The translations under genes and the position numbers were made by a program. The notes below the pieces were generated by a model. That model ran no database searches. It was not told where the DNA came from and saw only the letters and a program-made list of their open reading frames with translations. A stretch of 34,370 bases of DNA from a bacterium (GTDB lineage: Bacteria; Patescibacteriota; Microgenomatia; UBA1400; PJMF01): the NCBI GenBank assembly GCA_027620445.1, contig JAQBYG010000006.1, forward strand, positions 1-34,370. Reading direction: 5' to 3'. Positions 1-18,813 of the stretch are shown one piece after another (position 1 is the stretch's first letter; every line of letters begins with the position of its first letter).

Positions 1-28
1 TACCCTATAGTGTGATAGAGTATTGTGT

Positions 29-2332
29 ATGATAAATATGCCATACAATTCAGCAGAAGCTTTTACTGGCGGCAATCCTCATGACGCAAGGCTCAAAGAA
101 AGACTTGACCGCAGGTCACAGCAGCAACCTGAAGCTAGGCCCGCGCTAACAGAAAAAGGCGAAGGTCTCAACTACGCAGAGTTGGTAAGTGTTACATTCA
201 GCAAGATTTCTGATCCAAAAGAACGTGCAAGAGCACAAGCTGCCCTTGCTTTACTACGTCCTACTAGAAGGACATCATCAACTGTACTTCCAGAGTTTCG
301 TAGGAAGCAGATTCAACAAGAAATAGCGAGGATGAATGCGCATGCTGCAGAGCTCCAGCAGCTTGGTTTTGCAGAAACTGACAGGGAGAGAGCAAGGCTA
401 GCTTTGGAGCAATTAGCTGACACACCTGACTTTTTGCTTCGTGGAGTATCTGGCAAAGAGTTTCTTTTTGGACCTAGAACTGAAGCGGTGCTTTGGCAAC
501 TTTATCGTACCGCTGGAGCACTTGTGCTGACGCTGGTACTTGCGTTGCTTGCAGGAACCGGGATTGCGGAGGCTCAAGAAGCAAAGCCTGTAAAGACGCC
601 AGTAGAAACAACTACGCCTGACACAAAGGATTCTGAGAAATCTCAAGCTGTTGCAATCGGCAATGGAGGTGGTACTAACCGAGCGATGAACCCATCTCAG
701 TCTCAAACGGATGCACGCCCAATTACTTCTACAGCAGCCATGAGAGAGACAGGATCTACGACTGAAACGCTCTCATTCGACCATCTGCCAGTTCAAGTAA
801 CCCTAAAGATAACTGGTACTTTATATGGTCCATCAGGGCAACGAGTGGGAACAATTCTTCCTGGGAGAGTGGTGACCGCTACTGAAGGCATAAGGGTTGA
901 TGAAAGTACTGGGAAGGTGACCATAGGACTAGAAAGAGGTAGCTATATTACTGCGACTGGTCAGATCTCCAATGCTTTGGGTGCGATTTCTTTAGGTCTA
1001 GGGGATTTGCCGGGAGTAGTTTTTGATGGCAGAGAAGTAAGAAATAAGGGTGAGGAGAGACTGGTTCAAGTTCGTGTAACCACACCATTAAATCTTCGCA
1101 GCACCCCAGAAATTGCAGCTGGTAATCTGATTACTGGTACCGACGGTAAGACCATTGCTGCGCAAGGCAGTTTTTCTGCCACGCTAGTAACCAAAGAAGA
1201 GACTGGAGACATTTGGGCACTCGTTTCCCTTCCCACCGGTGAACAGGGCTATGTAGCAGTTCGTGCAGATGGACAAGTATTTTCTCAAGTTGGGGGTGAA
1301 CAAGGCACAGGTGGACCGGAGTCTATAGATTGGGCAAGAATTATTGCTCGCATTGCGCAAGCGCTTCCAGAGCTAACGGGCCGGTTGAGGGTAGTTTTTG
1401 AACCTCCAAGCATAAACATTCCAACTGGAGCAGGATTGGAGTTGCCACCAGAACCGACTGCTATGATCGTTCAAACTCAACCGGATGACTCATCTGGACA
1501 GGTCATCATGGCTATACAACCAACTCCTGAAGGACTTGAGATTACTCAGTTAACTTCCTCTGAAGAGATTGCTGCGGCAACACGGCAGGCGTTGGAGGAG
1601 GTTGGGGGTGCACGAGAAATTGATTATGGCGACAAGAAAAATTATCCACTCAAGGTGGACGCAGAACCAACATTAGCATATCCAGGTGAGATCGTGGGTA
1701 GGTCAAAGGATGGCGACCAGGAATATGTGGAGCTTTACGGGATCTTGCATGGTCTTGAGCAAAAAGAGTTTGTTGATCCTGAAAGTGGCGAGTTATGGGT
1801 TGCACTTGGAATGAAAGTGGCAGTCCCTCAAGATGATGGATCCTGGACAACAGTTTTTCAGCCAATCTGGGAAAATCTTACAGATATCCCGAATGATCCC
1901 GATCCATTTGATGATATCGAAGCATATAATTTCTTCGCTTACTATACTACTACAGAGGCCTCCATTTCGCATGGTGGATCTCAGGCACCAGAACGTTTCA
2001 AGGCTGTTCCGCCTAAGATTCCAGGAGATGCTCAAGCAATAGCAGATAACAAAGCCACTCTTGCCGCACTGCATGCATTTTTACAAAAGAGCATAGGAAG
2101 TCCAATTGTTGTCAATGTGAAGATAGAACAGGTCGGAGAACCAAGCACGTCACCTGTGAGAGGTCAAGACGCTCGAAATAGATTTACAAATATGTTTTTA
2201 GAACAATCTACTGCTAAAAATCAGCTTGTAGAGGGCGAACTTGGGGAAAGAGATCGATTCGCATTCGATGGCGAAGGTTCCTCCACGCTCGGGATCTTGA
2301 GCGTTGCCACTTTTTTTAAAAGTCAGAGATAA
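29..2332 (+). CDS. Hypothetical SH3-like domain protein with one internal membrane segment
   Basis: No family name is recognised for the whole protein (about 767 residues). Residues 1-155 are charged, rich in Arg, Glu and Gln, and probably helical. A single hydrophobic stretch at about 160-180 (Ala/Leu/Val-rich, ending in an AxA-like site) should be a membrane anchor or an unusually internal signal. A low-complexity Thr/Pro/Gln linker follows. At about 344-418 a segment with VRVTTPLNLRSTPE, then WALVSL and GYVAVR, matches the bacterial SH3 (SH3_3) pattern, usually a wall or protein binding module. The remainder to the C-terminus has no motif I know. Start choice: TTG at 23, ATG at 29 and ATG at 38 are all in frame. 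ATG 29 is preferred because an extended -10-like TGATAGAGT (13-21) would put transcription start next to it. The SH3 call is moderate; location outside the membrane is inferred. Confidence 0.7.
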   Translation: MINMPYNSAEAFTGGNPHDARLKERLDRRSQQQPEARPALTEKGEGLNYAELVSVTFSKISDPKERARAQAALALLRPTRRTSSTVLPEFRRKQIQQEIARMNAHAAELQQLGFAETDRERARLALEQLADTPDFLLRGVSGKEFLFGPRTEAVLWQLYRTAGALVLTLVLALLAGTGIAEAQEAKPVKTPVETTTPDTKDSEKSQAVAIGNGGGTNRAMNPSQSQTDARPITSTAAMRETGSTTETLSFDHLPVQVTLKITGTLYGPSGQRVGTILPGRVVTATEGIRVDESTGKVTIGLERGSYITATGQISNALGAISLGLGDLPGVVFDGREVRNKGEERLVQVRVTTPLNLRSTPEIAAGNLITGTDGKTIAAQGSFSATLVTKEETGDIWALVSLPTGEQGYVAVRADGQVFSQVGGEQGTGGPESIDWARIIARIAQALPELTGRLRVVFEPPSINIPTGAGLELPPEPTAMIVQTQPDDSSGQVIMAIQPTPEGLEITQLTSSEEIAAATRQALEEVGGAREIDYGDKKNYPLKVDAEPTLAYPGEIVGRSKDGDQEYVELYGILHGLEQKEFVDPESGELWVALGMKVAVPQDDGSWTTVFQPIWENLTDIPNDPDPFDDIEAYNFFAYYTTTEASISHGGSQAPERFKAVPPKIPGDAQAIADNKATLAALHAFLQKSIGSPIVVNVKIEQVGEPSTSPVRGQDARNRFTNMFLEQSTAKNQLVEGELGERDRFAFDGEGSSTLGILSVATFFKSQR

Positions 2333-2384: not shown

Positions 2385-3023
2385 ATGCGGAGCGAGGCTT
2401 TTTTTATACCTGCGATAGTTGTTGCCATAGCAATTGTTTTGGGCGCGGCATATGTTGGTTTTAACTCAAGGTATAAAAACAACTTTCTCATTACTAAGAA
2501 CGAGAGCTTGTTAGATGATACGAACAAAGAAGTTGGTGATTTTGCCACTCCCTTCCAGACAACTACTCCTTTTTTATACTTAGTTATCTTGTCTCAAGGA
2601 AATATTGAGCTTGACCAAGAAAAAAATATTTACTTTGTTAGTGCAGCAGTAAGCCCAGTGAAACCGGAAGTGTTTAAATTAGTGATAGGAGACACAAATA
2701 ATAAGGTTTTCTTTGCCAAGAAAACCAAGTCAGACGCAAATCTACCACCTGAGTATAAGCACGTCGCTATCGAATCGTTGAGAGATTCTGGAGGGTTTGC
2801 CCAAAAGAAGTACCTAGTGGGAATTCCGCTTATGACTAGTCCGGCAGTAGTTGAGGATAAACCTTGCAACTCCTATTGTGTAAGCAACAGAAAAAAAATT
2901 GCTTTGTATAGTAAAGAATTTTCTTTGTTTGGCAATTCTGATGAAACTACTTCGTTATTTAGTAATTTTATTGAAAAAAAAGAGTTTGGTCCTGTGATGC
3001 AAGTTTTGGAGTTAGAAGACTGA
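2385..3023 (+). CDS. Small N-terminally anchored hypothetical protein of the surface operon
   Basis: This 212-residue protein is not recognised. It has one N-terminal hydrophobic helix (about residues 7-27, FIPAIVVAIAIVLGAAYVGF) and then a soluble region with no Cys cluster except a CNSYC motif near residue 161. The topology fits a short cytoplasmic tail with the bulk outside the membrane. It lacks a GFTLIE-type prepilin cleavage site, so it does not look like a pilin. The stop is one base from the ATG of the large Cys-rich gene, so the two are almost certainly co-transcribed and translationally coupled; it may be an anchor, chaperone or assembly partner of that protein (inference). Base composition is more AT-rich than the pilus genes downstream. 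Confidence 0.65.
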   Translation: MRSEAFFIPAIVVAIAIVLGAAYVGFNSRYKNNFLITKNESLLDDTNKEVGDFATPFQTTTPFLYLVILSQGNIELDQEKNIYFVSAAVSPVKPEVFKLVIGDTNNKVFFAKKTKSDANLPPEYKHVAIESLRDSGGFAQKKYLVGIPLMTSPAVVEDKPCNSYCVSNRKKIALYSKEFSLFGNSDETTSLFSNFIEKKEFGPVMQVLELED

Positions 3024-3024
3024 G

Positions 3025-6000
3025 ATGTTTAAACTAAACAAAAAAAACCTAGCACCCTATTTAGTGACCACTTTTGCTGTTTGCATTACCGCACTATTTG
3101 TTCCTCAACGAATTTTCGCAGGATACTGTTCTCCTGCAACTACCAGCGTTACTTCTCCTGACTGTCAACCAGATGGAGATACGGGTGCAGGAGTGTGTGT
3201 CGACAGATCAATAGCTTTAGGTTGCTACAATGTTTTCGGATCAGGATCTTGTATATCAGACCAGTACTACGTTCAGTGTACTGACGGCTGGGTTACAGAG
3301 GAAGGTGATCCAACTTGGTGCTCATTTGGTCAGACCGGTCACGAAATCTGCGGACCATACATAGAGAATACTCCCTCCGGCGGCTACGGCTGCGTTTCTG
3401 GCCAGTGTAAGTGGACCGCTACTGGCGGAGGCTGTTCTGCCTGCACAACTTCTGATCCGCCCGAGTGCGGGAATGGGGAGGTAGAAGTAGGAGAAGAATG
3501 CGACGCTGGTTCGGGTGGATCAGCAACATGTAGCTCAAGTTGTACAACTATACAGGGACCGACGTGTAATTGGTGTACAAACCAAGCATATTGTCAGTCT
3601 GTGGGTGGTAGTTGGGTCGGTCCATCAAATTACTGTGGCGTGGCTGGTGATGGTTGTTGTACCACTGGCACTAATCCGGGTGGCTGCGCTGCTACCGGTG
3701 CTATCTGTGGAACAGGTGCTGCTATACCTGGAGCTGGTGGCACGCATTGTAACTTAGAGATGATTTCGTATGTAAATGTTGCCGGACAGGTCGTACTTGA
3801 GGCACTAAAAACCGACGGCTCACCTTGTCCCAGAGTTTGGGGGGGCAGAGTTGATTGGGTTGGTGATACTTTCGGCGGTCTTGCGGTTTGGAAACAAGAA
3901 GGTTCTAACGTAGCTTCGGATGACCTCCTCAGACCGAACTACCCTAACTTAAATGCTAGTTTTCCAGCGCTGATAACTAAATCGATTCACGGTATTCTGC
4001 CGAATGATAATTATAAAGTTGCATTTAATGATCCTGTAAACGTTTCGCACACCTATCTCCTTAATCCTGCCTGTGCCACAAACGCCACATCATATTCGTA
4101 TCATGATGAGTATGTGTACAATCGCACAGAAGATAGAGATCAGAACGCTGCTGTTACATCAGAAGAGCGCTGGAAAGCTATGCGACAGTGTCACAGCAAA
4201 GTTGTCTACAAACCCATCGAATGCATCGTGACTACCGTCGACGGCACAGTTGTAGAAGGTGAAAACCTAAAAATAGAGCTCTATGCGGGTGAGAGAAAGC
4301 CAATAAGGATAGATGGGGCAGATAGATCACCCGGTTATACTGCCCGATTATTTCTTGGAAAACCTGACTATACCGAAATATCACCACTTCCTGCAAGCCT
4401 GGCGAATGCAACATATGCTTATGGTTCTTATGCTCTTACGTCAGCAAATTGTACTTTTAGTAGAGATACAGGAAAGTGCAGTAGTGAATTTAACATCTCT
4501 GATTTACCTGTTGGATCGTATAAATTCTACTGTGACATACCTGCAGCAGGTGCTTTTGAGCCACAAAACTGCACTGGTAATCCTTGGTGTAGCGTCAATG
4601 GTGGCAACCCGGCTGATGTCTGCGTCGGTTGGCTTTCTTGTTCTGCAGATGATTCATTAAACGTAGTTGTGGGTCCGGGAATTCCCCCCGCCCCAGAAAA
4701 TCTAACTTCAAGCTGCGTCTCTCCAGGAAACAAAATGACGCTTAGTTGGGATCTCGTGCCAGGGGCTGACAGTTACCTCGTTCGAGTGGATGACGGTATA
4801 CCGGGATTTGCCGCTGGCCAAGATAATGTAGAGTCTGTGTTGCATGTTGGAGCTGACACTTGTGGTGCAGGTTATGAACATTGGGATGTTTGTGTCCAAA
4901 CTACTACGACAAGTTTACAAGTCCAAGTCGACCCCGCCACCTTCGAATCTGCTATCTGGAGAATTTATCCGGTAAATGACGCTGGGCAGGGACCATATAC
5001 CGAGGAAACACTGTATAGCTGTCTCCCCGATTGTAGTTCCCTAGCTGGTCCTACAAGCATCATCCAAGGTCAAACGGGCCAATTTAGCGCAGACTTTACT
5101 TCAAATTATGGCTTTCTAGGAGCTGAGATTGATGCAGGAAGCGGCGGGTCTCTTGTGTGGGATGCAGCCAGCATAGACTGTGGTGACGCCACAACAAGTT
5201 GCAGTCAATCGTTCGATTGGGATACGACTGGAGTCACTCCAGGAGACTATGATGTGTTTTGCAGAGCCTGGAACGATAGCATAGCAGAGTGCATGGGTGA
5301 CGGATCTTATGTTGGTTCCCCTCCACAATATGCCTGCCCAAGCGAAGCTGAAAATGTCACCAAGATGTCTGTCGAGGTACTTCTCCCCAAATACACCATA
5401 TCCGGCAACGTGTACGAGGGTCTAAACACGAGCTCAACACCGTACTGTTCTGCTCCTTCACCAACCGCGTGGGGTGGTGGCGGAAGTATGTCAGTGACTG
5501 TCAGTGGTTTTTCTCCGGGACCGAGTCCAAATGCCACAACTTCGGTGAATGGCTCCAATGGCGTATGGTCGAGTGATCAGTTTGATTCGAGTGCAGGTAC
5601 AGCCACCCTCCAGCTCAATAATCTGCCGGCCGGTTATGATGTCATTTGTCCTGCGGGCGGACAGTACCTCGGAGTGCCGGCCAATGCCGATGCTACAGGC
5701 GTCAATTTCTTTATTTCGCAAATCAATGGCCCTTGGTGGCAGACGCGTAGCGGCTTAGCAGGCGGGACGAATATGATCTCAAGCCTACCGTATTCTTCTG
5801 GGGTGCTTAATCCCCTCTGCGATGGGGTAAATTGTATTCCATTTCTTAGTGCTAGTGCTCTTGTAGATGCCGATCCATTTACAACTGCGGGCATTCCTAC
5901 CGGTACTACCACTGGTACGAGTGGATACGACTCACAGCATTTAAATGCGAGTGATCTTTATTTTGAAGCTGCAGCGGGCCATGTGGATTCTAGTACCCTG

Positions 6001-6639
6001 TCAAAGGATACATACAGCTCACTCTCCCGCCGGTTTGATCTTTCGACAGCGACTAGTATTAATTCGCCGCTGTCTAGTGTGCCAAGTGGAGACGTAGGTC
6101 AAGGTAGCGACAGTACTGAGGTGTATACAAGAACTGGTGATCTAGAAATAACACCAAGTGCGACATGGAGCGTGACAGGCAAGAAAGTATTGTTTGTCAA
6201 AGGCAACGTCACTATCAGTGAGACGGTTACAGGGCCATCAATTACTGTTGCTCCTGGTAGCTTCTTTGCCGTCGTTGCGACTGGCAACATTACTTTTGAC
6301 CAGGATATCGGTACGACCATTTCTCATCCGGCTGGTGCGCCGAGTTTGACGCCACAAATAGAAGGTTTGTATGTAGCAGACGGTACGCTCACTGTTGCGG
6401 CGGCAAGTGATTCAACTGTAGTTGACAAAATGTTTGTCGGTGCGGGTACGTTTGTGGGTTGGGGTGGCGTGAGTCTGCCCAGAGATTTTGAAACAGACAA
6501 TGCTGCAACTGGCCTGCTCAACAACTATGTGCCAACAGACACCTTTATTTTCCGTCCCGACTTTATCCTGAATACACCAGAGCTGATGAAGCGATCATCT
6601 TTCAACTGGCGCGAGATAAACTCGATCACGCAGGAGTAA
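3025..6639 (+). CDS. Large secreted Cys-rich surface protein, possible pilus-associated adhesin
   Basis: A 1204-residue exported protein. Residues 1-32 form a signal peptide (Lys-rich start, hydrophobic core, cleavage near IFA-GYC). The mature N-terminal third is full of cysteines, including CGNGEVEVGEECDAG at about 148-162, the hallmark of the Myxococcus-type Cys-rich repeat (DUF4215-like). Around 554-665 a fibronectin-III-like segment is visible (PPAPENLTSSC, then LSWDLVPGADSYLVRV). The C-terminal about 170 residues contain short beta repeats such as VLFVKGNVTI and FFAVVATGNITF, suggesting a beta-solenoid. No sortase motif or C-terminal membrane helix is seen. It sits four bases before a PilW-like prepilin gene, whose Shine-Dalgarno (AGGAG, 6633-6637) overlaps its end. 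Role as a tip adhesin of the pilus (compare PilY1 by position, not by sequence) is inference. Many cysteines imply an oxidising extracellular folding route. Confidence 0.8.
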   Translation: MFKLNKKNLAPYLVTTFAVCITALFVPQRIFAGYCSPATTSVTSPDCQPDGDTGAGVCVDRSIALGCYNVFGSGSCISDQYYVQCTDGWVTEEGDPTWCSFGQTGHEICGPYIENTPSGGYGCVSGQCKWTATGGGCSACTTSDPPECGNGEVEVGEECDAGSGGSATCSSSCTTIQGPTCNWCTNQAYCQSVGGSWVGPSNYCGVAGDGCCTTGTNPGGCAATGAICGTGAAIPGAGGTHCNLEMISYVNVAGQVVLEALKTDGSPCPRVWGGRVDWVGDTFGGLAVWKQEGSNVASDDLLRPNYPNLNASFPALITKSIHGILPNDNYKVAFNDPVNVSHTYLLNPACATNATSYSYHDEYVYNRTEDRDQNAAVTSEERWKAMRQCHSKVVYKPIECIVTTVDGTVVEGENLKIELYAGERKPIRIDGADRSPGYTARLFLGKPDYTEISPLPASLANATYAYGSYALTSANCTFSRDTGKCSSEFNISDLPVGSYKFYCDIPAAGAFEPQNCTGNPWCSVNGGNPADVCVGWLSCSADDSLNVVVGPGIPPAPENLTSSCVSPGNKMTLSWDLVPGADSYLVRVDDGIPGFAAGQDNVESVLHVGADTCGAGYEHWDVCVQTTTTSLQVQVDPATFESAIWRIYPVNDAGQGPYTEETLYSCLPDCSSLAGPTSIIQGQTGQFSADFTSNYGFLGAEIDAGSGGSLVWDAASIDCGDATTSCSQSFDWDTTGVTPGDYDVFCRAWNDSIAECMGDGSYVGSPPQYACPSEAENVTKMSVEVLLPKYTISGNVYEGLNTSSTPYCSAPSPTAWGGGGSMSVTVSGFSPGPSPNATTSVNGSNGVWSSDQFDSSAGTATLQLNNLPAGYDVICPAGGQYLGVPANADATGVNFFISQINGPWWQTRSGLAGGTNMISSLPYSSGVLNPLCDGVNCIPFLSASALVDADPFTTAGIPTGTTTGTSGYDSQHLNASDLYFEAAAGHVDSSTLSKDTYSSLSRRFDLSTATSINSPLSSVPSGDVGQGSDSTEVYTRTGDLEITPSATWSVTGKKVLFVKGNVTISETVTGPSITVAPGSFFAVVATGNITFDQDIGTTISHPAGAPSLTPQIEGLYVADGTLTVAAASDSTVVDKMFVGAGTFVGWGGVSLPRDFETDNAATGLLNNYVPTDTFIFRPDFILNTPELMKRSSFNWREINSITQE

Positions 6640-6643
6640 GCAG

Positions 6644-7183
6644 ATGCAGAAGAATAGTGGTTTTACCCTGATAGAACTGATGAGCTCGACGGCGCTGCTC
6701 TCGATTTTACTTGTGGGTGCAGTCACGGTGTTTACCACGACACTCCTCTCACAATCCAAGGCACGGATACGCAGGGTGCTCAAGTTGGAGGGGGAACAGA
6801 TTGTGAGGACCATCGAGTTTGAGCTCAAGAATGCACAGTCAATTAGTCCTCCCTGTGATGGTGTAGAAACGAACTTGATACAATACACTCGCGCCGGAGA
6901 TGCAACTCAGCCAGCTCCAACCAGAGAAATTTCTCAGGCAGATGTCAACAGTCCGATCATGATGGGTCCCGTAGGTACTCTTGAGTCAATCATGTCCGAT
7001 AGGGTCAAGGCAAGTCCACAACTAACGTTTGTTTGCGAGCATAGTCCAGATACCAATGGGCGATATGTGACGGCGACGTTTTCACTCACTAATGCTCAAG
7101 ATGGAGAAATTCGTGCCGACGCAGGATCTATTGTCGAGTCATTTAGGACTGGGGTTTCGTTTCGTAACTTCAAAGCCAATTAG
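6644..7183 (+). CDS. Type IV prepilin-like minor pilin, PilW/PulJ type
   Basis: A 179-residue protein with a short leader ending in Gly6, then FTLIELM: the class III signal processed and N-methylated by prepilin peptidase, with the conserved Glu at +5. The hydrophobic helix covers about residues 8-29 and is followed by an amphipathic helix with QIVRTIEFELKNAQS, typical of PilW/PulJ minor pilins. The C-terminal half is a soluble pilin head with two cysteines. It is the last gene of the plus-strand operon, four bases after the Cys-rich protein. Its 3' end overlaps the converging PilV-like gene by 14 bases. The family is clear; the PilW/PulJ subtype is moderate. Confidence 0.85.
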   Translation: MQKNSGFTLIELMSSTALLSILLVGAVTVFTTTLLSQSKARIRRVLKLEGEQIVRTIEFELKNAQSISPPCDGVETNLIQYTRAGDATQPAPTREISQADVNSPIMMGPVGTLESIMSDRVKASPQLTFVCEHSPDTNGRYVTATFSLTNAQDGEIRADAGSIVESFRTGVSFRNFKAN

Positions 7184-7667
7184 TGAACTCTTGCTGGGTG
7201 ACGATCGTGTCGGTCGCGGTACCACCACCCCTGCCTGATTTCCAGGAGACGGTGACGGTGATACCAACTTTACTTAGATCGCTCGTATCCGCTTCAACCA
7301 GGCGTTGAAACAAGATGCCACTCACAGTTACTCCGGCACCTGCAGCACACTGAGTTGCAACTGGGACGAATGTTCCGGTTACATCAAAATCTTTTGCATC
7401 GCTGAGAACACAGTGATTGCCTGTACCTTCTGTCCGGAAGTCTTCCCAGGTAGAGAGCGTTCGTTCTCGATGATACAGCTCCACCACCTCTTGTGCTAAG
7501 CCATTGGCGATTTCCCGATACCGAGCGTTGGACGCAACCACCAGCGAGCGCGTCATGAGGACGGCAATACCAACAAGCACCATGCCCAGCAAAACGAGTG
7601 CGAAAAGGACTTCGAGCATGCTAAAACCGGCTTGGAGACGGAGCTGTTTAGAGATCGGTGATTGCAC
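7170..7667 (-). CDS. Type IV prepilin-like minor pilin, PilV/GspI type
   Basis: A 165-residue prepilin if started at the GTG at 7667. The leader ends at Gly14 before FSMLEVLFAL, and the next residues (helix, then ANGLAQEVVELYHRERT) resemble PilV/GspI minor pilins. No in-frame ATG or TTG lies closer to the cleavage site, and the GTG has a good AGGAG nine bases upstream; a longer reading from 7805 would put about 60 residues ahead of the cleavage site and is rejected. The start lies 20 bases inside the end of the GspH/FimT-like gene, so translation is coupled. The head domain carries two cysteines and ends FTNWL. Minor pilins of this kind prime pilus assembly with PilW-like and GspH-like partners, both of which are adjacent here. 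Confidence 0.85.
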   Translation of the reverse strand: MQSPISKQLRLQAGFSMLEVLFALVLLGMVLVGIAVLMTRSLVVASNARYREIANGLAQEVVELYHRERTLSTWEDFRTEGTGNHCVLSDAKDFDVTGTFVPVATQCAAGAGVTVSGILFQRLVEADTSDLSKVGITVTVSWKSGRGGGTATDTIVTQQEFTNWL

Positions 7668-8166
7668 TGCTGATGACTCCTGTACTTGAGATAGTAATGG
7701 TGTATCTGTTTTTTGTCGATGAGAGTGAGATTGAGCCAGCACCAATTTCTGGGTCGTGTTGCGATTGTGGGGTGAAAAAATCATATTGGGTGCTGCCACC
7801 TGCAAAAATCATCGTTGGAGTAAAAGAGTCAGTTATGGGGCCCATTTGAGTGTTGGAAGGACTCGCTGTAGCACCACAGAGCTCATGGGTATTTACCTCT
7901 CCCGTTGCCGAGATTGTGGTGCGAAAGCCTTGAAAATCATCGTTGACAACATCGGGATCATCATCGCACAGTTTTGTCGCCCGGATGCGCGCTTTATTTT
8001 GCGCCATTTTAATGCGATTTTCTAAAGTTCTGCCTTCTGTGACTAATGTCCGGTACTCATTGAACTGCACATATCCAGCGATAGAGCCACCGATAACGAC
8101 CATCATAATTGCTGCAACCACTAGGAGCTCGATGAGCGTGAAACCGGCTGCAGGCAGGTATTTCAT
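7648..8166 (-). CDS. Pseudopilin, GspH/FimT type
   Basis: A 172-residue protein with leader MKYLPAAG and cleavage before FTLIELLVVAAIMMVVIGG, Glu at +5 after processing. The segment after the helix (YRTLVTEGRTLENRIKMAQNKARI) followed by a beta-rich C-terminal half ending in YTITISSTG is characteristic of GspH/FimT minor pilins. Its ATG overlaps the stop of the preceding pseudopilin gene (ATGA at 8163-8166), and its own end overlaps the PilV-like gene by 20 bases, so the set is translated as a coupled block. It would be a tip or priming subunit of the pilus. Confidence 0.86.
   Translation of the reverse strand: MKYLPAAGFTLIELLVVAAIMMVVIGGSIAGYVQFNEYRTLVTEGRTLENRIKMAQNKARIRATKLCDDDPDVVNDDFQGFRTTISATGEVNTHELCGATASPSNTQMGPITDSFTPTMIFAGGSTQYDFFTPQSQHDPEIGAGSISLSSTKNRYTITISSTGVISSAITDL
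7677..7681 (-). promoter_or_regulatory. Shine-Dalgarno AGGAG fixing the GTG start of the PilV-like gene
   Basis: On the minus strand AGGAG lies nine bases before the GTG at 7667, inside the coding sequence of the preceding pseudopilin gene. It is the main reason for choosing this start. Confidence 0.6.
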
Positions 8167-8555
8167 GGGTTGGTGAATTCGAGAGTTGATCCGTCATTTT
8201 CTAAAGTCGCGCTTAGAGTAAATTCAGTTGTGGTGCATCCAGTGCAAGCATAGAAGTATGTGGCGTCATTTTTTGGATCTTCAATTGCGCCAGGGCTTAG
8301 GTATCTTGTGTCTTCATCCTGAAGAGTAGTAACAATGGTATCAAAATCTCCAGTTGGATAACCAACTCCTTCATTCACCTTATACTGCACCATCGCCTGT
8401 TGCACCATGGCCAGGTCTGCTCGTCTGCGAGAGTCGCGGGCAGATTGTCCTGCTTTGGCAAAACTGACTGCACCGATCACAGAGAGCACAATAATAATTG
8501 TTGCGGTGACGAGGAGTTCAATAAAAGTAAAGCCGGTTTTTTGTTGTTTTTGCAT
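8163..8555 (-). CDS. Type II/IV pseudopilin, PulG-like
   Basis: A 130-residue prepilin. The leader MQKQQKTG is followed by FTFIELLVTATIIIVLSVIG, with Glu at +5, a long hydrophobic helix, then AGQSARDSRRRADLAMVQQAMVQY, the typical PulG/PilE alpha1-C pattern. GYPTGDFD and a Cys pair (CTGC) lie in the small head. It follows the pilin at 8559-8969 by three bases and overlaps the GspH/FimT-like gene by four. Whether it is a major or minor subunit cannot be told from sequence alone. Confidence 0.86.
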   Translation of the reverse strand: MQKQQKTGFTFIELLVTATIIIVLSVIGAVSFAKAGQSARDSRRRADLAMVQQAMVQYKVNEGVGYPTGDFDTIVTTLQDEDTRYLSPGAIEDPKNDATYFYACTGCTTTEFTLSATLENDGSTLEFTNP

Positions 8556-8558
8556 AGG

Positions 8559-8969
8559 TTATTGCAGGTTTTTTACGCAGTAGAACAGTCCTGGAGTACC
8601 GGTCATTCCCCCGCAATCAGTGTTGGCGTTGGCTGAATTACCTGTTGTTACCTCGAGTGTTGCGCAAACACAGTAACTCGCTGTGTCAGGGCAGGTCTTA
8701 GCATAACTTGGAGCCTTAGGGGAAGTTGGTGCAGCACCTGAAAACATTGCATCCATTGTTGAGCAAGAAGCTGCATATGCGCTGTTAGTTGTAGAATAAT
8801 ACTGTTCATATGCTTTTTGGTAGGCTTTCATATCCCCAATTCGCGTCGCATCCCGCGCCTTCTTCTGCGCATTGGTAAATGCCGTCATGCCAATGGCAGA
8901 CAGAATGCCAATGATCGAGATAACGACCAAGAGTTCGATCAGAGTAAAACCAGCGACAAATTTTTTCAT
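8559..8969 (-). CDS. Type IV prepilin, PilE/PulG-like
   Basis: A 136-residue prepilin: leader MKKFVAG, cleavage before FTLIELLVVISIIGILSAIG, Glu at +5. The alpha1-C region (ARDATRIGDMKAYQKAYEQYY) and a small head with five or more cysteines (CSTM, CPDT, YCVC, DCGG, YCVK) indicate a disulphide-stabilised pilin. It begins 19 bases after the PKD protein gene ends, and the following pseudopilin starts only three bases after its stop. By its canonical form it is a candidate structural pilin, in competition with the separate prepilin at 14040-14645, which has its own promoter. Confidence 0.88.
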   Translation of the reverse strand: MKKFVAGFTLIELLVVISIIGILSAIGMTAFTNAQKKARDATRIGDMKAYQKAYEQYYSTTNSAYAASCSTMDAMFSGAAPTSPKAPSYAKTCPDTASYCVCATLEVTTGNSANANTDCGGMTGTPGLFYCVKNLQ

Positions 8970-8988: not shown

Positions 8989-9951
8989 TCATACCCCGCT
9001 CGAGACGTTGACTGCAACCGTATCTAGTTTACCAGGCAGAGAGCTTACGCCCCATGCATCCTTCAGCTCTATCTGGGCTTTGTACTGACAGTTGCCTGCC
9101 GGGCACGAGTACACATGCTCGACGCTCCCAGTAGAGCCTTGCAGCTGTTCAGTTTTGCCATCCCCAAAGGAGATCATCACCTGTAGGTTGCTCGATTTGC
9201 CCGCATCAGCAACATAGTGAAAGGAAACAGTTCCGCCAGGAGCAATGGTTACGCTGCGTGTTTGGGGATTGAGGAACGGGGCAGTGGTAAAGGAGAGTAA
9301 GACTGGTCGAGTAATGCAGCTGCTAAAGCAAGTAGCGGGGCAGCTCTCTATGCCGCTAATGCTTTCACCAGCCCCCATTTGTGTTTGCGCATCACAGCAA
9401 ATATAGCCATAGCCCTCGCAGGAAGTGTTTGGTCCCACGCCGAGCTCTGCCGCATCGCCATCAGCCAGCACGACTCCGTCGGAGAGCACGACACTGCGTT
9501 CCCGCACAAAAAACTCGGGCACAGAGCCGATGTACTCGCGGATGAGCGCCAGCTCGGTCGCAAAAGCAGTTAGCCTCACCCCGCTCAGTGGTTCTTCTGG
9601 AAGGAGGCCAGAGCTACCAGGTACCTTAGAAACGAGCACAGGCAGATTTTTGCGTGTAATCAGGGTAGGTTCAGCGGCAACATCACACACAACCTCGAGT
9701 GCATACTCAGTGTGATTCAGAAACCGCAGCTGATACTTTGGATCTATTTTGCCAAACACATCGGTACCGATACTACGCTGACATTGTTGGGCAAACGTCC
9801 CCTTGGTTTCAGCCCTAGCAAGTTCTTGGACGGAGGATGCAAGTGAGCGGCTCGCCCACCACAATAGTGCCTCACGAGAGCCAAAAAAAGCTCCGACAGC
9901 AATCAGCAGAATGATGAAAAAACCAGTCAGTAAAGTCCGCAGTACGCGCAT
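8989..9951 (-). CDS. Membrane-anchored PKD-domain protein of the pilus operon
   Basis: A 320-residue protein with one N-terminal membrane helix (about residues 5-25, LLTGFFIILLIAVGAFFG). The middle part has a Cys-rich patch around 178-215 (CEGYGYICCD, then CPATCFSSC). The C-terminal 95 residues look like a PKD-type immunoglobulin fold: VTIAPGGTVSFHYV, ISFGDGKTE, VEHVYSCPAG and a final TVAVNV strand. Its ATG follows the pilD stop with no gap and the prepilins follow, so it belongs to the pilus operon. It has no prepilin cleavage site. A role in pilus assembly, anchoring or adhesion at the cell surface is inferred from position and domain type only. Confidence 0.75.
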   Translation of the reverse strand: MRVLRTLLTGFFIILLIAVGAFFGSREALLWWASRSLASSVQELARAETKGTFAQQCQRSIGTDVFGKIDPKYQLRFLNHTEYALEVVCDVAAEPTLITRKNLPVLVSKVPGSSGLLPEEPLSGVRLTAFATELALIREYIGSVPEFFVRERSVVLSDGVVLADGDAAELGVGPNTSCEGYGYICCDAQTQMGAGESISGIESCPATCFSSCITRPVLLSFTTAPFLNPQTRSVTIAPGGTVSFHYVADAGKSSNLQVMISFGDGKTEQLQGSTGSVEHVYSCPAGNCQYKAQIELKDAWGVSSLPGKLDTVAVNVSSGV

Positions 9952-10764
9952 CTATACCAGTGTAGCATACCAAGAGATCAGTGCGTCACCCCATACTAGT
10001 GCCAGCAGCGTACCGATGATGAGAAAGGGACCAAAGGGAATTGGTTTGCCAAATTTTGCTTTGCCAAGGGCGATGAGTAGTACGCCAATGATTGCACCAA
10101 CAACGGTAGCAAGCCAGAGGCCAATCCAGACAACTGGCCAACCCATGAGCAGACCGAGTGGAGCTGCTAGTTTGACGTCGCCAAAGCCGATTCCCTTACG
10201 TTTGGTAAGTAGCCAAATTGCATAGAAAAATCCGCTCGCAGCTACTGCTCCAAAGACAGTCCAAAAGAAATCTTCTGGCCGCATAATGCCCGCAACTACC
10301 AAAGCGATACGATAGAGCAGCGCCATGCTTGTCAGCGCTATAACCGTCCAGTCGGGGATGATGTAGTAGCGATAGTCATAGATGAAGATAAATAAAAGAA
10401 TCAGGCCGACAAAGAGCCAAAAGATCGGTTGCAGCATGACAAAGGGTTGCTGAGACAGCTGGAAGAAAAAGAAGCCAACCGCGTACCACCAGACAAAGAG
10501 TAAGCCAGTGAGCCCTTCAACCACTGGGTGAGATATCGAGAGAGGTTTGCGGCAGCGTCGACACTTACCAAACAGCAGCACAAACGAGAGCAGTGGGATG
10601 TTGTCGTACCAAGCTATTTGTTTTTTGCAGCTTTCGCAGACGGATCGACCCGCCAGCCAAGGCTGATTTTTTCTGGTGCGGTAGATCAGGACATTGAGGA
10701 AGCTACCGACCGAGGCGCCGAGGGCAAACAGGAAAAGGCCAATGATGACTGTGAGTTCGGACAT
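9952..10764 (-). CDS. pilD: Prepilin peptidase / N-methyltransferase PilD
   Basis: A 270-residue polytopic aspartic protease that removes prepilin leaders and methylates the new N-terminal residue. Seen in order: GASVGSFLNVLIYR in the first helix, two CxxC pairs (Cys43/46 and Cys68/71) forming the cytoplasmic zinc-binding domain, then the catalytic aspartates in IYDYRYYIIPD (about D130) and GFGDVKLA (about D196). Length and order agree with full-length PilD/GspO including the methyltransferase domain. It heads the minus-strand operon with the PKD protein and four prepilins, all or most of which should be its substrates, together with the prepilins at 6644 and 14040. The start is ATG at 10764; no Shine-Dalgarno is visible. 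Confidence 0.93.
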   Translation of the reverse strand: MSELTVIIGLFLFALGASVGSFLNVLIYRTRKNQPWLAGRSVCESCKKQIAWYDNIPLLSFVLLFGKCRRCRKPLSISHPVVEGLTGLLFVWWYAVGFFFFQLSQQPFVMLQPIFWLFVGLILLFIFIYDYRYYIIPDWTVIALTSMALLYRIALVVAGIMRPEDFFWTVFGAVAASGFFYAIWLLTKRKGIGFGDVKLAAPLGLLMGWPVVWIGLWLATVVGAIIGVLLIALGKAKFGKPIPFGPFLIIGTLLALVWGDALISWYATLV

Positions 10765-14039: not shown

Positions 14040-14645
14040 CTATGGGAGGCAGTAGTAGTCTACGGTACCACAGGCCGAAGCTGGAAAGTCAGGAGGCAAA
14101 TCTCCATAAGCAGCTGCCGCATCACATCTGTCACTAGCTTTAACCGTGAATGCATCTGACTGAGGCTCAAAACAGACATACGTAGTGCTCCCAGCATCTC
14201 CTTCGTTGTGTACAAACAGAGAATTGTAGCTGCCAGCAGTAATCCGAGCAGTAAACGATGATTTGATCTCATTTGAGTTTGTGCATCCAGCTGCAGTGGT
14301 AGCAGTACTACCCAAACGATCTAGGACATTGCAAGTTGCATCGCCATTTACCGTCCAAGCTGTACTACCGATTTCAGTCCAGCTAACCGCTGCAGTATCA
14401 CTCGGATCTTCTTGCCACGGATAGTATCCCTGGAACGCGTTGTATCTGTCTGCAGCACTAATCAGCTGCTCTGCATCCGACTGACTCCCGGTATCTCGAC
14501 CACGATTAATTTGCTCAATTGGATTGATCGCAGACAAAACAGCCACGGCAAGAATGCCGAGAATCGAGATAACAATCAAAAGCTCAATCATGGTAAAACC
14601 AGCGACTGAGGTTATTGGCTTGAGCAGAGCGCGAAATAATTTCAT
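14040..14645 (-). CDS. Type IV prepilin, candidate structural pilin
   Basis: A 201-residue prepilin with a 16-residue leader ending AG, then FTMIELLIVISILGILAVAVL with Glu at +5. The alpha1-C region (INPIEQINRGRDTGSQSDAEQLISAADRYNAFQGYYPW) matches the larger prepilins common in CPR pilus loci. The head contains six cysteines, the last near the C-terminus (YYCLP). A strong Shine-Dalgarno (AAAGGAAATCATATG) and a separate promoter (14688-14715) in the 91-base gap after pilC suggest high expression, as expected of a major pilin. Directly downstream is the GT-C glycosyltransferase, which may modify it. Ser/Thr-rich segments in the head (for example GSTATTAAGCTNSNE) could be glycosylation sites (inference). 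Confidence 0.87.
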   Translation of the reverse strand: MKLFRALLKPITSVAGFTMIELLIVISILGILAVAVLSAINPIEQINRGRDTGSQSDAEQLISAADRYNAFQGYYPWQEDPSDTAAVSWTEIGSTAWTVNGDATCNVLDRLGSTATTAAGCTNSNEIKSSFTARITAGSYNSLFVHNEGDAGSTTYVCFEPQSDAFTVKASDRCDAAAAYGDLPPDFPASACGTVDYYCLP

Positions 14646-14687
14646 ATGATTTCCTTTGTACCTGGGACCTTTCCCATCACTTACTAC

Positions 14688-14715
14688 TCTATAACAAATC
14701 GCAAACCCGATGCAA
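14688..14715 (-). promoter_or_regulatory. Promoter for the prepilin-glycosyltransferase pair
   Basis: On the minus strand TTGCAT (14710-14715) and extended -10 TGTTATAGA (TATAGA at 14688-14693) are separated by 16 bases. The expected transcript starts near 14681, leaving a leader of about 36 bases with the AAGGA ribosome site. It lies in the only sizeable gap of the pilB operon. Confidence 0.45.
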
Positions 14716-14736
14716 GGGGGAGTTGCCGCCTAGTCA

Positions 14737-15939
14737 CTAGAACTGGCTCGTCAGGTTGTAAATTGGCATGATGATCGCGATCACCATGGCACCCACACCG
14801 ACACCAAGCACCACCATGATCAGCGGTTCCATAGCCGCGGTGAGATTTTTGACTGCCTGCTCACTCTCTTGCTCAAAGTAATCGGATAGTTTTTTCAAGA
14901 TTTCATCTAATTTGCCTGTCTCTTCACCCACTGCAGTCATCTGAAACAGGATGGGTGGAAAGGCTTCGCCGCGCTCAAGCGCTTCGGACAGAGGCACACC
15001 TTTTTCTACCTCCTTGGTCGCAACATCTAGCGCATTGCGATATACTTGGTTTGAGACCCCTTTTGTGACAATTTCCAGGGCATTGAGGAGCGAGATACCT
15101 GCGCCAATGAGCAGGGAGGTTGTTCTGGCAAACTCGGTCAGGACTATTTTAGTGGTCAGCACGCCGATAATCGGAATGCGCAAGACTGTCCTATGCCACG
15201 AGAGACGACCGGTCTCTGTCTTGATCCAACGCTTAAATGCCAAGAAACCGCCAACACCACCGCCAATAATTACCCACCAGAAATTTTTCATAAAGCTCGA
15301 GAGGCCAATGAGTGCGCGAGTTGCCGCGGGGAGCTCGGCGCCGAAATCGGTGTACATAGCTGTGAGCTTGGGAATCACGAAAATCATCATGATAAAACCA
15401 ACTACCACCATGGCAAGCATGACAATAATTGGGTAGATCATGGCACCCTTGGTCTTGCTTCTGAATGCCTTGCTCTTTTCCATATTTTCTGCCAAGCGAG
15501 CGAGAATTTCATCAAGCACTCCACCGAGTTCACCCGCACGGACGAGTTGGGTATAGAGATTGTCAAATACATCCGGATGCTTCTCGAGTGCATCAGCAAA
15601 GGCAATACCACCTTCAACGTCCTCAAGGATTTGCGCTGTTAGCCGCGACATATCCGGCTTACTTTGTTGTACTAAAATGGCCAGCGACGAGGCGAGGGGA
15701 AGGCCGGCGGAGATCATCGTCGAGAGTTGGCGAGTGAAGTTGACCACGTCGTCAGTTTTGACGCCACCAAGCATGGCTCTGAGTGGTGCGAGGACATCAT
15801 CGGTTAGTGGTTTGAGCTGGATAACCAGTAACTTACGTTCTAAAAGCGCGCTTGAAGCCTGGTGAATATTGCGAGCTTCTACCTTGCCGCGGATACTTTC
15901 GCCAAACTCATTTTTTGCTGTGTAGGTAAAAAATGGCAT
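14737..15939 (-). CDS. pilC: Type IV pilus inner-membrane platform protein PilC
   Basis: A 400-residue protein of the GspF/PilC family. It begins MPFFTYTAKNEFGESIRGKVEA, the standard N-terminus, and has two repeats of the T2SSF domain: the first with FTRQLSTMISAGLPL and DALEKHPDVFDNLYTQLVRAGELGGVLDEIL, the second with FARTTSLLIGAGISLLNAL and FPPILFQMTAVGEETGKLDEIL. Membrane helices lie near residues 170-195, 215-235 and 372-395. It forms the cytoplasmic-membrane platform on which PilB and PilT act. The start is four bases past the pilT stop, so translation is coupled. Length is that of the family. Confidence 0.95.
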   Translation of the reverse strand: MPFFTYTAKNEFGESIRGKVEARNIHQASSALLERKLLVIQLKPLTDDVLAPLRAMLGGVKTDDVVNFTRQLSTMISAGLPLASSLAILVQQSKPDMSRLTAQILEDVEGGIAFADALEKHPDVFDNLYTQLVRAGELGGVLDEILARLAENMEKSKAFRSKTKGAMIYPIIVMLAMVVVGFIMMIFVIPKLTAMYTDFGAELPAATRALIGLSSFMKNFWWVIIGGGVGGFLAFKRWIKTETGRLSWHRTVLRIPIIGVLTTKIVLTEFARTTSLLIGAGISLLNALEIVTKGVSNQVYRNALDVATKEVEKGVPLSEALERGEAFPPILFQMTAVGEETGKLDEILKKLSDYFEQESEQAVKNLTAAMEPLIMVVLGVGVGAMVIAIIMPIYNLTSQF

Positions 15940-15942
15940 AGG

Positions 15943-16998
15943 TTATTTTTCGAGTAAGCGGGCCATTTCTGCAGGACGAAAGGCACGTTCTAGCGCTGTT
16001 TCTTTCGTGATTATTCCTTGTTGAATGAGCTGCATCAAGTGGGTTTCAAACAACATCATGCCAGAATCTGCCGAGGTTTGGATAACAGTATCGATCTGAA
16101 AGGCCTTTTCCTCACGAATAAGATTCCGGATTGCCGAGTTGGCAAACATGATCTCGAGGGCTGCTCGGCGACCACCACCCACGGCTGGAAGCAAGCGCTG
16201 TGACGCAACGGCTTTTACTGTAGCCGCGAGTTGTTGGCGGATTTGTCCTTGCTGTCCGGCAGGAAAAACGTCGATGATACGACTCATCGTTTCAGCGGCA
16301 GTTGCGGTGTGTAGTGTGGCGAAGACCAAGTGACCAGTTTCTGCAATAGTAATGGCAGAAGCGATCGTCTCGAAGTCGCGCATTTCACCAATGAGCACAA
16401 CATCTGGATCTTCACGCAGGACTGAGCGAAGCGCCACTTGCCAACTGTTGGTGTCGTGGCCGACTTCTCGTTGAGTCACAATACTCTTGGCTGCTCTATA
16501 CCGAAACTCAATTGGATCCTCGATGGTCACGATGTGTTCGGCGCGTTCCCTATTGATAGAATCAACGATGGCCGCCAGAGTTGTCGATTTTCCCTCACCA
16601 GTTGGGCCAGTCAGGAGCACTAGTCCCTGGTTGAAATGCGCGAACTGCGACATGACGGGGGGTAAGTTTAATTCTTCGAGAGGTTTCACCCGATCTGGGA
16701 TAAGACGCATCGCGGCACCGAGCGTACCCATGGCATGAAAGACATTAACACGAAAGCGCCCCTTATCCTGAAATTGGTACCCAAGATCGAGTTCTTTATT
16801 GACCCGGACGTAGTCTTTTTGCTCCTGAGTCAGGATGGGCATGATCAGTTTTTCGGACAGTTCCTGGGTCAGGACCGGAGCACCTTCGACGGCGGTCAAA
16901 ACGCCGCTTACCCGAAGCATGGGTGGTGTGCCGACATTGAGATGAATGTCAGAACCTTCTTTGTCGACCACCTGCTGCATGATGTCATGAATGTTCAT
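15943..16998 (-). CDS. pilT: Pilus retraction ATPase PilT
   Basis: A 351-residue hexameric ATPase that depolymerises the pilus. Seen in order: N-terminal GSDIHLNVGTPPMLRVSG, Walker A GPTGEGKSTT (about 131-140), Asp box IVTIEDPIEF, Walker B VVLIGEMRD, His box GHLVFATLHT, and a C-terminal SAIRNLIREEK that corresponds to the AIRNLIRE (AIRAGE) motif required for retraction. The Walker A has Glu where Ser is usual (GPTGSGKS); this still fits GxxxxGK[ST]. An AAGGAG ribosome site lies seven bases before the ATG. It is between pilB and pilC, and its presence predicts a retractile pilus capable of twitching or DNA uptake. Confidence 0.95.
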   Translation of the reverse strand: MNIHDIMQQVVDKEGSDIHLNVGTPPMLRVSGVLTAVEGAPVLTQELSEKLIMPILTQEQKDYVRVNKELDLGYQFQDKGRFRVNVFHAMGTLGAAMRLIPDRVKPLEELNLPPVMSQFAHFNQGLVLLTGPTGEGKSTTLAAIVDSINRERAEHIVTIEDPIEFRYRAAKSIVTQREVGHDTNSWQVALRSVLREDPDVVLIGEMRDFETIASAITIAETGHLVFATLHTATAAETMSRIIDVFPAGQQGQIRQQLAATVKAVASQRLLPAVGGGRRAALEIMFANSAIRNLIREEKAFQIDTVIQTSADSGMMLFETHLMQLIQQGIITKETALERAFRPAEMARLLEK

Positions 16999-17005
16999 AT
17001 GCTCC

Positions 17006-18772
17006 TTATATTTCCGCTACGCGCAAGACCTCTTCTAGTGTGGTGAGTCCCTCAAGTGCTTTGAGGTAACCATCTTGTTTCATTACGAGCGAGCCTTGTG
17101 TAAGTGCAATTTTTTCTACTTCACTTGCGGTTGCACGTTGCAGAATCAGTTTTTCGATCTCATCGGTAATGCGGATGACTTCGAAAATAGCGACGCGACC
17201 CTTGTACTCTAGCTGGTCTTCTGGTCGATCAGCACGAGAGCGATATAGTTGCATTTTGGCAGGATCGAGGCCTTTTTCTTTACAAAACTGTTCGTAGTGA
17301 GGGCCGAGTACTTTTTTGATATCTTCCACAACTTCGGGCTCTGGAGTGTAGGCTTCTTTAAAGTCCGGATTGAGGAGGCGAGCAACGCGTTGTCCGGCTA
17401 CTAGAGTCATCGATGAGGCCAATAAAAATGGTTCCGCACCCATGTCGAGCAGACGCGGTAGGGCACCAGCTGCGGACGAGGTGTGCAGGGTAGAAAACAC
17501 CAGATGTCCTGTCAGCGAAGCTTGGATCGCTAGCTCGGCTGTTTCAGCGTCGCGAATTTCTCCAACCATGATGATATTGGGATCTTGGCGCAAAAAGGAG
17601 CGCAGTCCAGAGGCAAAGGTGAGACCTGCCTGGGGGTTGATTTGCACTTGGTTAACGCCATTCATCTGGTACTCGACTGGATCTTCCAGCGTCATAATAT
17701 TTACTTTTTGTGTATTAATAGTATGTAGTACTGAGTAGAGGGTAGTGGTTTTGCCTGATCCTGTTGGTCCGGTGATGAGAATGATGCCGTGTGGCACTTT
17801 GATCGCATCTTGCATGTTGCGTAGTGCTAGGCGGGTCAAGCCCAGCTCAGGAAGTGGCGGGACCGCCTGATCTTTCTTGAGCAAACGCATGACGATTTTT
17901 TCTCCATGAATGGTTGGTAGTGTCGAGACACGTAGGTCAATTTGTTTACCTTGGCTCGCAAAAGTAAACCGTCCATCTTGCGGCACGCGCTTTTCGTCGA
18001 TCTTGAGGTTGCTCAAGATTTTGATACGAGAGACAACAGCATCGTGTACGCTTGCAGGTAGGATCAACTTTTCACTCAAAATACCGTCAATGCGATAGCG
18101 GATGCGCGTGCGATCTTCTTGCGGCTCGATGTGAACGTCAGATGCCCGTGCTTTCATAGCAAAGGCAAGGGTGGTCTCGACAATTTTGGTAATAGGAGCT
18201 TGCTTGATCGTTTTGCCAGAAAGCTCTGTGAAGTTTTGTCGTTTTTCATCGTCCTTGGAAACCTGCGTTGTTTGTTCCAGCGCGGCCGTGACTTCGCCGG
18301 TGAGGGTTTGCGAGTAGTACTCCGCAAGTTTTTGCTCAAGAATCAGGGGTGGAGCATAGTACGCCTCCACACGCATGCCGGTTTTTTGTTGGGCAAAATC
18401 GACCGCTGTCAGATCGAGCGGGTCGAGCATAGCAACTTTAATCAGGCCTCTTTCTTTTTCGAACGCGAACGGCAACATTTTGTAGTGCCGGGCAGAGCCT
18501 TCGGGCAGGAGGCTAATCGCTTGTGGCGACACACCGACTTCATTCAGATTGATGTAGGGAACGTTGTGAAAAATTGCTTTGGCTTGTGCAAAAGATTGTT
18601 CGTCTACTAGGTTCTTTTCGACGACGAGTGCTTCGAGCGTTTTGCCTGTGCTGATATTCTCGACCAGTAAGACGTTGGCCATTTCGGCGGTGAGTTGCCC
18701 CTTGCTCACCAACACGTCAAGAATGTTGTTATAATTTTCGGCGGGCGCTGGAGTCGGGGCAGACTGTTGCAT
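17006..18772 (-). CDS. pilB: Pilus extension ATPase PilB
   Basis: A GspE/PilB ATPase of 588 residues from the ATG at 18772. A GTG at 18808 would give 600, but would leave only five bases to the divergent gene at 18814; neither start has a clear ribosome site. The N-terminal MshEN/GspE-N domain (ILDVLVSKGQLTAEM, LPEGSARHYKMLPFAFEKE) precedes an ATPase core with ASDVHIEPQEDRTRIRYRIDG, Walker A GPTGSGKTTT, Asp box IMTLEDPVEY, Walker B IIMVGEIRD and His box GHLVFSTLHT. The four-cysteine zinc motif that many PilB/GspE proteins carry before the C-terminal end is absent; here the region reads RLLNPDFKEAYTPEPE with a single Cys nearby. It powers polymerisation of the pilins coded around it. Confidence 0.94.
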   Translation of the reverse strand: MQQSAPTPAPAENYNNILDVLVSKGQLTAEMANVLLVENISTGKTLEALVVEKNLVDEQSFAQAKAIFHNVPYINLNEVGVSPQAISLLPEGSARHYKMLPFAFEKERGLIKVAMLDPLDLTAVDFAQQKTGMRVEAYYAPPLILEQKLAEYYSQTLTGEVTAALEQTTQVSKDDEKRQNFTELSGKTIKQAPITKIVETTLAFAMKARASDVHIEPQEDRTRIRYRIDGILSEKLILPASVHDAVVSRIKILSNLKIDEKRVPQDGRFTFASQGKQIDLRVSTLPTIHGEKIVMRLLKKDQAVPPLPELGLTRLALRNMQDAIKVPHGIILITGPTGSGKTTTLYSVLHTINTQKVNIMTLEDPVEYQMNGVNQVQINPQAGLTFASGLRSFLRQDPNIIMVGEIRDAETAELAIQASLTGHLVFSTLHTSSAAGALPRLLDMGAEPFLLASSMTLVAGQRVARLLNPDFKEAYTPEPEVVEDIKKVLGPHYEQFCKEKGLDPAKMQLYRSRADRPEDQLEYKGRVAIFEVIRITDEIEKLILQRATASEVEKIALTQGSLVMKQDGYLKALEGLTTLEEVLRVAEI

Positions 18773-18813
18773 ACAAAAATAACCAGAGGTTAATTCACTA
18801 TCTTTCACTATAA

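Follow-up and report, generated by a model that had tools for sequence, protein, structure and literature searches.

A secreted modular protein of 1204 amino acids (aa) with 51 Cys, encoded at 3025..6639 on the forward strand of a patescibacterial stretch of 34,370 nucleotides (nt) (the window; assembly GCA_027620445.1, contig JAQBYG010000006.1), is fairly likely to be a type IV pilus tip adhesin with a previously unrecognised carrier domain. In this tiny, probably host-dependent bacterium it would probably serve as a grappling hook at the pilus tip, with binding heads that can be exchanged. This reading draws on gene order, a conserved domain and its predicted fold, the type of the neighbouring pilin and a missing prepilin leader; the location at the tip and the ligand are what we infer. 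On how Patescibacteria find and grip partner cells, the open-licence literature gave a candidate pilus adhesin only for Saccharibacteria (PMC12206443), and minor pilins predicted to sit at the tip have been put forward for testing in a review (PMC11665869).

Architecture of the Secreted Protein

The open reading frame (ORF) of a Cys-rich exported protein, as described in the initial annotation, was confirmed together with its N-terminal signal peptide. The latter spans residues 1-32 (3025..3120, +), appears by eye to be cleavable near ...RIFA/GYC and is without a prepilin leader. It is followed by a Cys-rich and beta-rich variable N-terminal part, in which residues 33-260 (3121..3804, +) hold 25 of the 51 Cys, and then by a CnaB-like domain and a beta-solenoid carrier, termed here the C-terminal domain (CTD; residues 903-1204, 5731..6636, +), which was delimited by alignments and an AlphaFold2 model and belongs to a conserved family. 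Just before the stop codon, the conserved tail fits a loose motif, W-[RQK]-E-[VIT], here WREI (6607..6636, +).

No Pfam family was matched by the protein at E<=1, in agreement with its earlier description as not PilY1-like, and the NCBIfam scan returned a single weak, uninformative match. Neither database gave a match at E<=1 for the Myxococcus-type Cys-rich repeat or for the FN3-like part proposed earlier, so these two features were not confirmed. Residues 787-901 (5383..5727, +) are instead modelled by AlphaFold2 as a CnaB/SdrD-B-like beta-sandwich, with VIA-align Z scores of 10-11 to SdrD and SpaD. By eye, the single segment CGNG...GEECD at residues 148-160 resembles the Myxococcus/DUF4215 repeat. 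Among the fetched loci, residues 88-240 are common only to a same-genus relative (L031). The mature protein is strongly acidic (net charge -74, isoelectric point (pI) 4.2), and acidity is common in the CTD family, with a pI below 5.5 in 59 of 62 members. An enzymatic function was rejected, with no catalytic family found in Pfam or NCBIfam.

The Neighbouring Minor Pilin

The tight linkage to a PilW/PulJ minor pilin noticed earlier holds: the next gene (6644..7183, +; PF07963 E 3.7e-07) begins 4 nt past the ORF, an operon-like spacing, and encodes a protein with a prepilin leader. Its structure model is a full pilin fold (predicted local distance difference test (pLDDT) 79.2), for which VIA-align found TTHA1219 (5g24) as the best match (Z 11.3 and 10.9), followed by EpsJ (9.3 and 9.0) and one chain of the XcpGHIJK pseudopilus model (8.9). 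Foldseek gave nothing significant for this model, and the curated GspJ sequence model of NCBIfam was not reached; the assignment rests on VIA-align. By model, the protein is a minor pilin of the GspJ/PilW type, with TTHA1219 of Thermus as its nearest relative in fold, and it is the proposed docking partner of the CTD. Together with the prepilins that follow CTD genes elsewhere it makes up a single family (alignment A5, 20 sequences); the ORFs that follow the CTD genes of L130 and L147 were omitted, the first being no pilin and the second GspG-like. In Thermus, TTHA1219 is GspJ-like and adjoins a GspI-like pilin and TTHA1220, a protein more than twice its size (PMC5131608). If TTHA1220 corresponds to ComZ, as we infer, then a solenoid protein stands beside GspI-/GspJ-type pilins in both organisms. 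The idea that the CTD tail completes the pilin sheet as a donor strand was unsupported and was dropped, because the pilin model already has its own last strand.

Fold and Extent of the Carrier Domain

The beta-solenoid-like C-terminus suggested by the initial annotation is backed by an AlphaFold2 model of residues 776-1204, built with 44 sequences (mean pLDDT 81.8, predicted template modelling score 0.81; most solenoid blocks above 90). In this model the CTD is predicted to form a triangular beta-solenoid of the ice-binding-protein type. When VIA-align was run on Foldseek's candidate structures, DUF3494 ice-binding proteins came out on top (4nu2, Z 13.4, 173 aligned residues, 2.7 A; 6bg8, Z 13.0), and the longest alignment was obtained with ComZ of Thermus thermophilus (6qvi, Z 11.9, 218 residues, 4.2 A). 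The likeness to ComZ is strengthened by the paper on its structure, in which 4NU2 is given as the structure nearest to its solenoid and a location of ComZ at the tip is argued for (PMC6561018). The CTD differs from the DUF3494 proteins in having no Pfam sequence match and in its context of pilus genes; an ice-binding function was rejected, since fold similarity by itself shows no function.

With the whole protein as query, matches were found in 37 of 53 related genomes, nearly always inside residues 645-1204, and an alignment of 40 CTD domains (A1) matched 45 of the 53 as well as 75 genomes in a phylum-wide sample of 286. Homology of the distant set is clear (hhalign probability 100). In a contig scan, the whole protein as query found no relative, and the CTD alignment A2 found 40 named loci, in metagenome-assembled genomes labelled Pacebacteria/Paceibacterota, Microgenomates, Woesebacteria, Collierbacteria and Beckwithbacteria, with a few odd labels. 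The family is marked by WWQT at its start, GNLTI-type solenoid repeats, GTFVGWxGVxLxR, RPDF and the tail W-x-E-V/I; the loose tail pattern lies within the last 28 aa in 49 of 65 members. A prepilin-type leader was recognised in 0 of 62 members of at least 400 aa, using the authors' own heuristic regular expressions for prepilins, signal peptides and transmembrane (TM) segments. No paper on the CTD family was found in the open-licence literature.

Linkage to Pilus Genes

Sixty loci were examined, comprising the window, 39 at order level and 20 at phylum level; CTD genes occur in 54 of them (65 genes in total), and the counts omit the loci without a CTD gene in the ORF table (L060, L066, L068, L098, L100 and L106). 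At order level, a same-strand prepilin lies directly downstream of 16 of 45 CTD genes, and a pilus gene lies within 3 kilobases (kb) of 21 and within 8 kb of 25. Within the same family, 16 of the 24 genomes with a fetched locus have a pilus gene at most 3 kb from a CTD gene. The background is much lower: in six genomes, regions up to 3 kb from a prepilin or PilC gene make up 1.5-3.7% of the sequence. At an assumed 6%, the chance of finding 16 of 24 linked would be about 1e-14, a figure that is only an illustration because the genomes are related. Pilus linkage also groups on a tree of 40 CTD sequences, taking 8 changes versus 13.6 with shuffled labels. At phylum level, a pilus gene lies within 3 kb of 6 and within 8 kb of 8 of the 20 CTD genes, and these are mostly beside PilM/N/O.

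Upstream, a small protein with an N-terminal TM segment is encoded directly before 28 of 58 CTD genes. The trio 2385-3025-6644 proposed in the initial annotation is therefore conserved in part: its upstream member recurs in position, but the downstream prepilin is confined to the order-level fraction given above. Twenty further stretches around GspJ-type pilins that are not near CTD genes mostly show the arrangement GspG-GspG-GspH-PilV-GspJ-PilX-PilM-N-O (genes named by likeness). Of the 53 related genomes, 51 contain PilC. One same-genus genome (G001, 93% completeness) is without both T2SSF/PilC and the CTD family, possibly through pilus loss. At L058:7159-17548, three CTD proteins are interleaved with N-TM proteins and pilins are absent nearby, and at L096, L097, L099 and L101 four CTD proteins of about 650 aa lie by cysS/recR-like genes (names by likeness), away from pilus genes.

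Variation of the N-Terminal Part

The module scan covered 39 full-length CTD members. An F5/8 type C domain (1.1e-12) with TSP1 was found in L039, whose CTD gene abuts a GspJ-type pilin, and a ConA-like lectin (1.4e-18) with SdrD_B in L114; TSP1 occurs in a second member and a sub-threshold DUF4215 match in L041. In 9 of 10 pairs the CTD is better conserved than the N-terminal part, often by a small margin, and in one pair the two are tied. The description of the N-terminal part as hypervariable was toned down, as within a genus its conservation mostly comes close to that of the CTD. In another CTD protein (L108:7106-9151) the signal peptide is closely followed by a Hint module (PF01079, 1.7e-8; residues 62-175).

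Comparison With Known Tip Proteins

A conserved C-terminal carrier combined with a variable N-terminus has precedents in PilY1 and modular pilins (PMC8179133), and in PilY1 the carrier docks on tip minor pilins (PMC8179133, PMC7541494). Like PilY1/PilC (PF05567), the window protein is a non-pilin secreted protein without a prepilin leader, joins a variable N-terminus to a conserved C-terminal carrier and is encoded beside PilV/PilW/FimU-type minor pilins, an arrangement shared by the linked genomes of its family and not universal among CTD genes. It differs in lacking the PF05567 domain, in that its carrier is a beta-solenoid and in that the PilX-like pilin is encoded elsewhere in its own genome. 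PF05567 was found in none of the 53 related genomes, though the control likewise matched nowhere. The protein is thus PilY1-like in position and probably in function, because the same logic is followed with another carrier, and it is not a PilY1 member.

The likeness to ComZ lies in the predicted carrier fold and in the neighbouring GspI- and GspJ-type pilins. Nevertheless, the ComZ solenoid is inserted in its own pilin domain, between the last strands, whereas the window protein has no N_methyl match, pilin domain or prepilin leader and carries its predicted solenoid at the C-terminus of a long secreted protein. Judged by model, it is ComZ-like in carrier fold, and it is not a ComZ member because it is without a pilin domain. 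A bolder reading, somewhat less likely than not, is that of a 'split ComZ', in which a tip-capping beta-solenoid left the pilin and became the C-terminal docking module of secreted proteins. The CTD would then be a third class of type IV pilus tip carrier, in addition to pilin domains and PilY1 propellers, and would allow Patescibacteria to display very large, exchangeable heads for the recognition of partner cells on a pilus of otherwise standard make.

DUF7305 (PF23981) gave sub-threshold matches in 9 of 40 CTD members (best 2.3e-5; the scores shown for relatives are all below the gathering score of 27 bits); the window protein differs from these in having no match at E<=1, and none was found elsewhere in its genome. 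No paper naming DUF7305 was found in the open-licence literature. The PilX1/PilX2 proteins of Saccharibacteria (TM7x) are likewise encoded in a patescibacterial pilus locus; their C-terminal domains are expanded, and they have no predicted PilD signal (PMC12206443). PilX2 differs in its beta-propeller, and both are described as minor pilins (PMC12206443), the comparison being one of descriptions only.

Proposed Mechanism and Alternative Explanations

An ordinary signal peptide would export the 1204-aa protein, and the beta-solenoid with its tail W-x-E-V/I would dock on minor pilins at the tip. The likeliest dock is the GspJ/PilW-type pilin encoded downstream, together with the adjacent PilV-/FimU-like pilins and the PilX-like pilin, whose gene lies elsewhere in the genome. 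The N-terminal part, long, acidic and rich in Cys, may then be exposed at the tip as a binding head that attaches to a ligand, and such heads may have been exchanged or remodelled among lineages for different surfaces, plausibly partner cells. A role in host or partner-cell recognition is plausible by analogy, because PilX2 of Saccharibacteria, which belongs to the pilus and likewise lacks a predicted PilD signal, affects host binding (PMC12206443). If the tip adhesin reading is true, the carrier domain, recognisable in 75 of the 286 sampled genomes, would let candidate adhesins be listed from genomes alone, the variable N-terminal modules could be compared with partner range, and conserved carriers that present proteins at the tip would be known to have at least two unrelated folds.

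Several observations weigh against it. In eight of the 24 genomes of the same family no CTD gene is near a pilus gene (some of these loci are at contig ends), 14 of the 20 phylum-level CTD genes have no pilus gene within 3 kb and none of the 20 is directly followed by a same-strand prepilin, and several genomes have PilC but no CTD. Foldseek found no PDB match for the CTD model at E<=0.001, and the CTD has no sequence match to ComZ or to any PDB chain. The fold assignment is good, not conclusive, because Z scores of 12-13 border on what a common repeat arrangement yields (in VIA-align, up to about 13 can be generic). Most of the 39 scanned members, including the window protein, have no recognisable binding module, lectin-type or TSP modules being confined to a few. 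The initial proposal of a tip adhesin analogous to PilY1 therefore stands in part: the linkage in two thirds of the family's genomes, the ComZ-like predicted fold, the GspJ/PilW-like neighbour and the lectin-type modules speak for it, and the unlinked genomes do not. Homologues away from pilus genes, named at the outset as the finding that would tell against it, do exist in these genomes and in most phylum-level relatives, yet 16 of 24 are linked.

The main rival is a surface adhesin or envelope protein off the pilus, whose CTD docks on the small anchored protein upstream and whose proximity to pilus genes is a lineage-specific accident. It would account for the frequent upstream N-TM protein, which also occurs at loci without pilins, for the pilin-free L058 cluster and for the unlinked third of the family. 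However, linkage lies far above the genomic background and groups on the CTD tree, the small TM proteins have little sequence in common (singletons make up 15 of the 28), and the ComZ-like fold and GspJ-like neighbour point to the pilus; this rival is considered rather unlikely. That the protein acts, as suggested for ComZ, as a DNA receptor in natural transformation, its solenoid capping the pilus and binding DNA, is improbable, even though the CTD falls in the same predicted fold class as ComZ and has GspI/GspJ-type pilin neighbours, as in Thermus. DNA uptake is made less likely by the acidity of the protein and its family, and neither a long non-solenoid N-terminal part nor the lectin-type modules of some relatives would be expected. 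Charge is not decisive here, because the ComZ solenoid is also without a positive patch (PMC6561018). More doubtful still is a cargo or assembly factor, released by or merely priming a pseudopilus-like machine, with no adhesive role. The minor pilins are indeed closest to pseudopilin types, and PilY1 with minor pilins primes pilus assembly in Myxococcus (PMC7541494); nevertheless, the machinery includes a PilT-like ATPase, some relatives carry binding modules, and priming and adhesion are not exclusive.

Other Genes of the Window

The contig also encodes pilB, pilT, pilC and pilD and a set of pilins. On the reverse strand lie a PilV/GspI-like minor pilin of uncertain true start (7170..7805; TIGR02523 E 1.2e-9, below its cut-off), a FimU/GspH-like minor pilin (7648..8166; TIGR01708 E 6.8e-7, below its cut-off), two GspG-like pilins (8163..8969; NCBIfam), the prepilin peptidase PilD (9952..10764; PF06750 1.7e-27, PF01478 1.2e-12) and, by domain matches, a pilin, PilC (T2SSF), a PilT-like protein and PilB (T2SSE, MshEN) (14040..18808). 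The PilX-like pilin of the same genome is found on another contig (C5, L178:6255-7007), ahead of PilM-, PilN- and PilO-like genes (named by likeness).

The small anchored neighbour described earlier was recovered as a 212-aa protein (2385..3023, +) with a single N-terminal hydrophobic stretch as its TM anchor, whose stop sits 1 nt before the start at 3025 and whose position is often conserved while its sequence is not. Possibly in the same operon, a 769-aa protein (23..2332, +) has an internal TM segment followed by an SH3b-like domain (SH3_3 E 0.011 here, 4.5e-07 in the L031 equivalent). Neither protein has a sequence relative among the ORFs of the fetched loci, and large proteins stand two genes upstream of the CTD gene at other loci too. 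Between pilD and the minor pilins, a 320-aa N-TM protein with 10 Cys and a weak PKD match (8989..9951, -) is encoded, and equivalents that also have 10 Cys occupy this position in many pilus loci.

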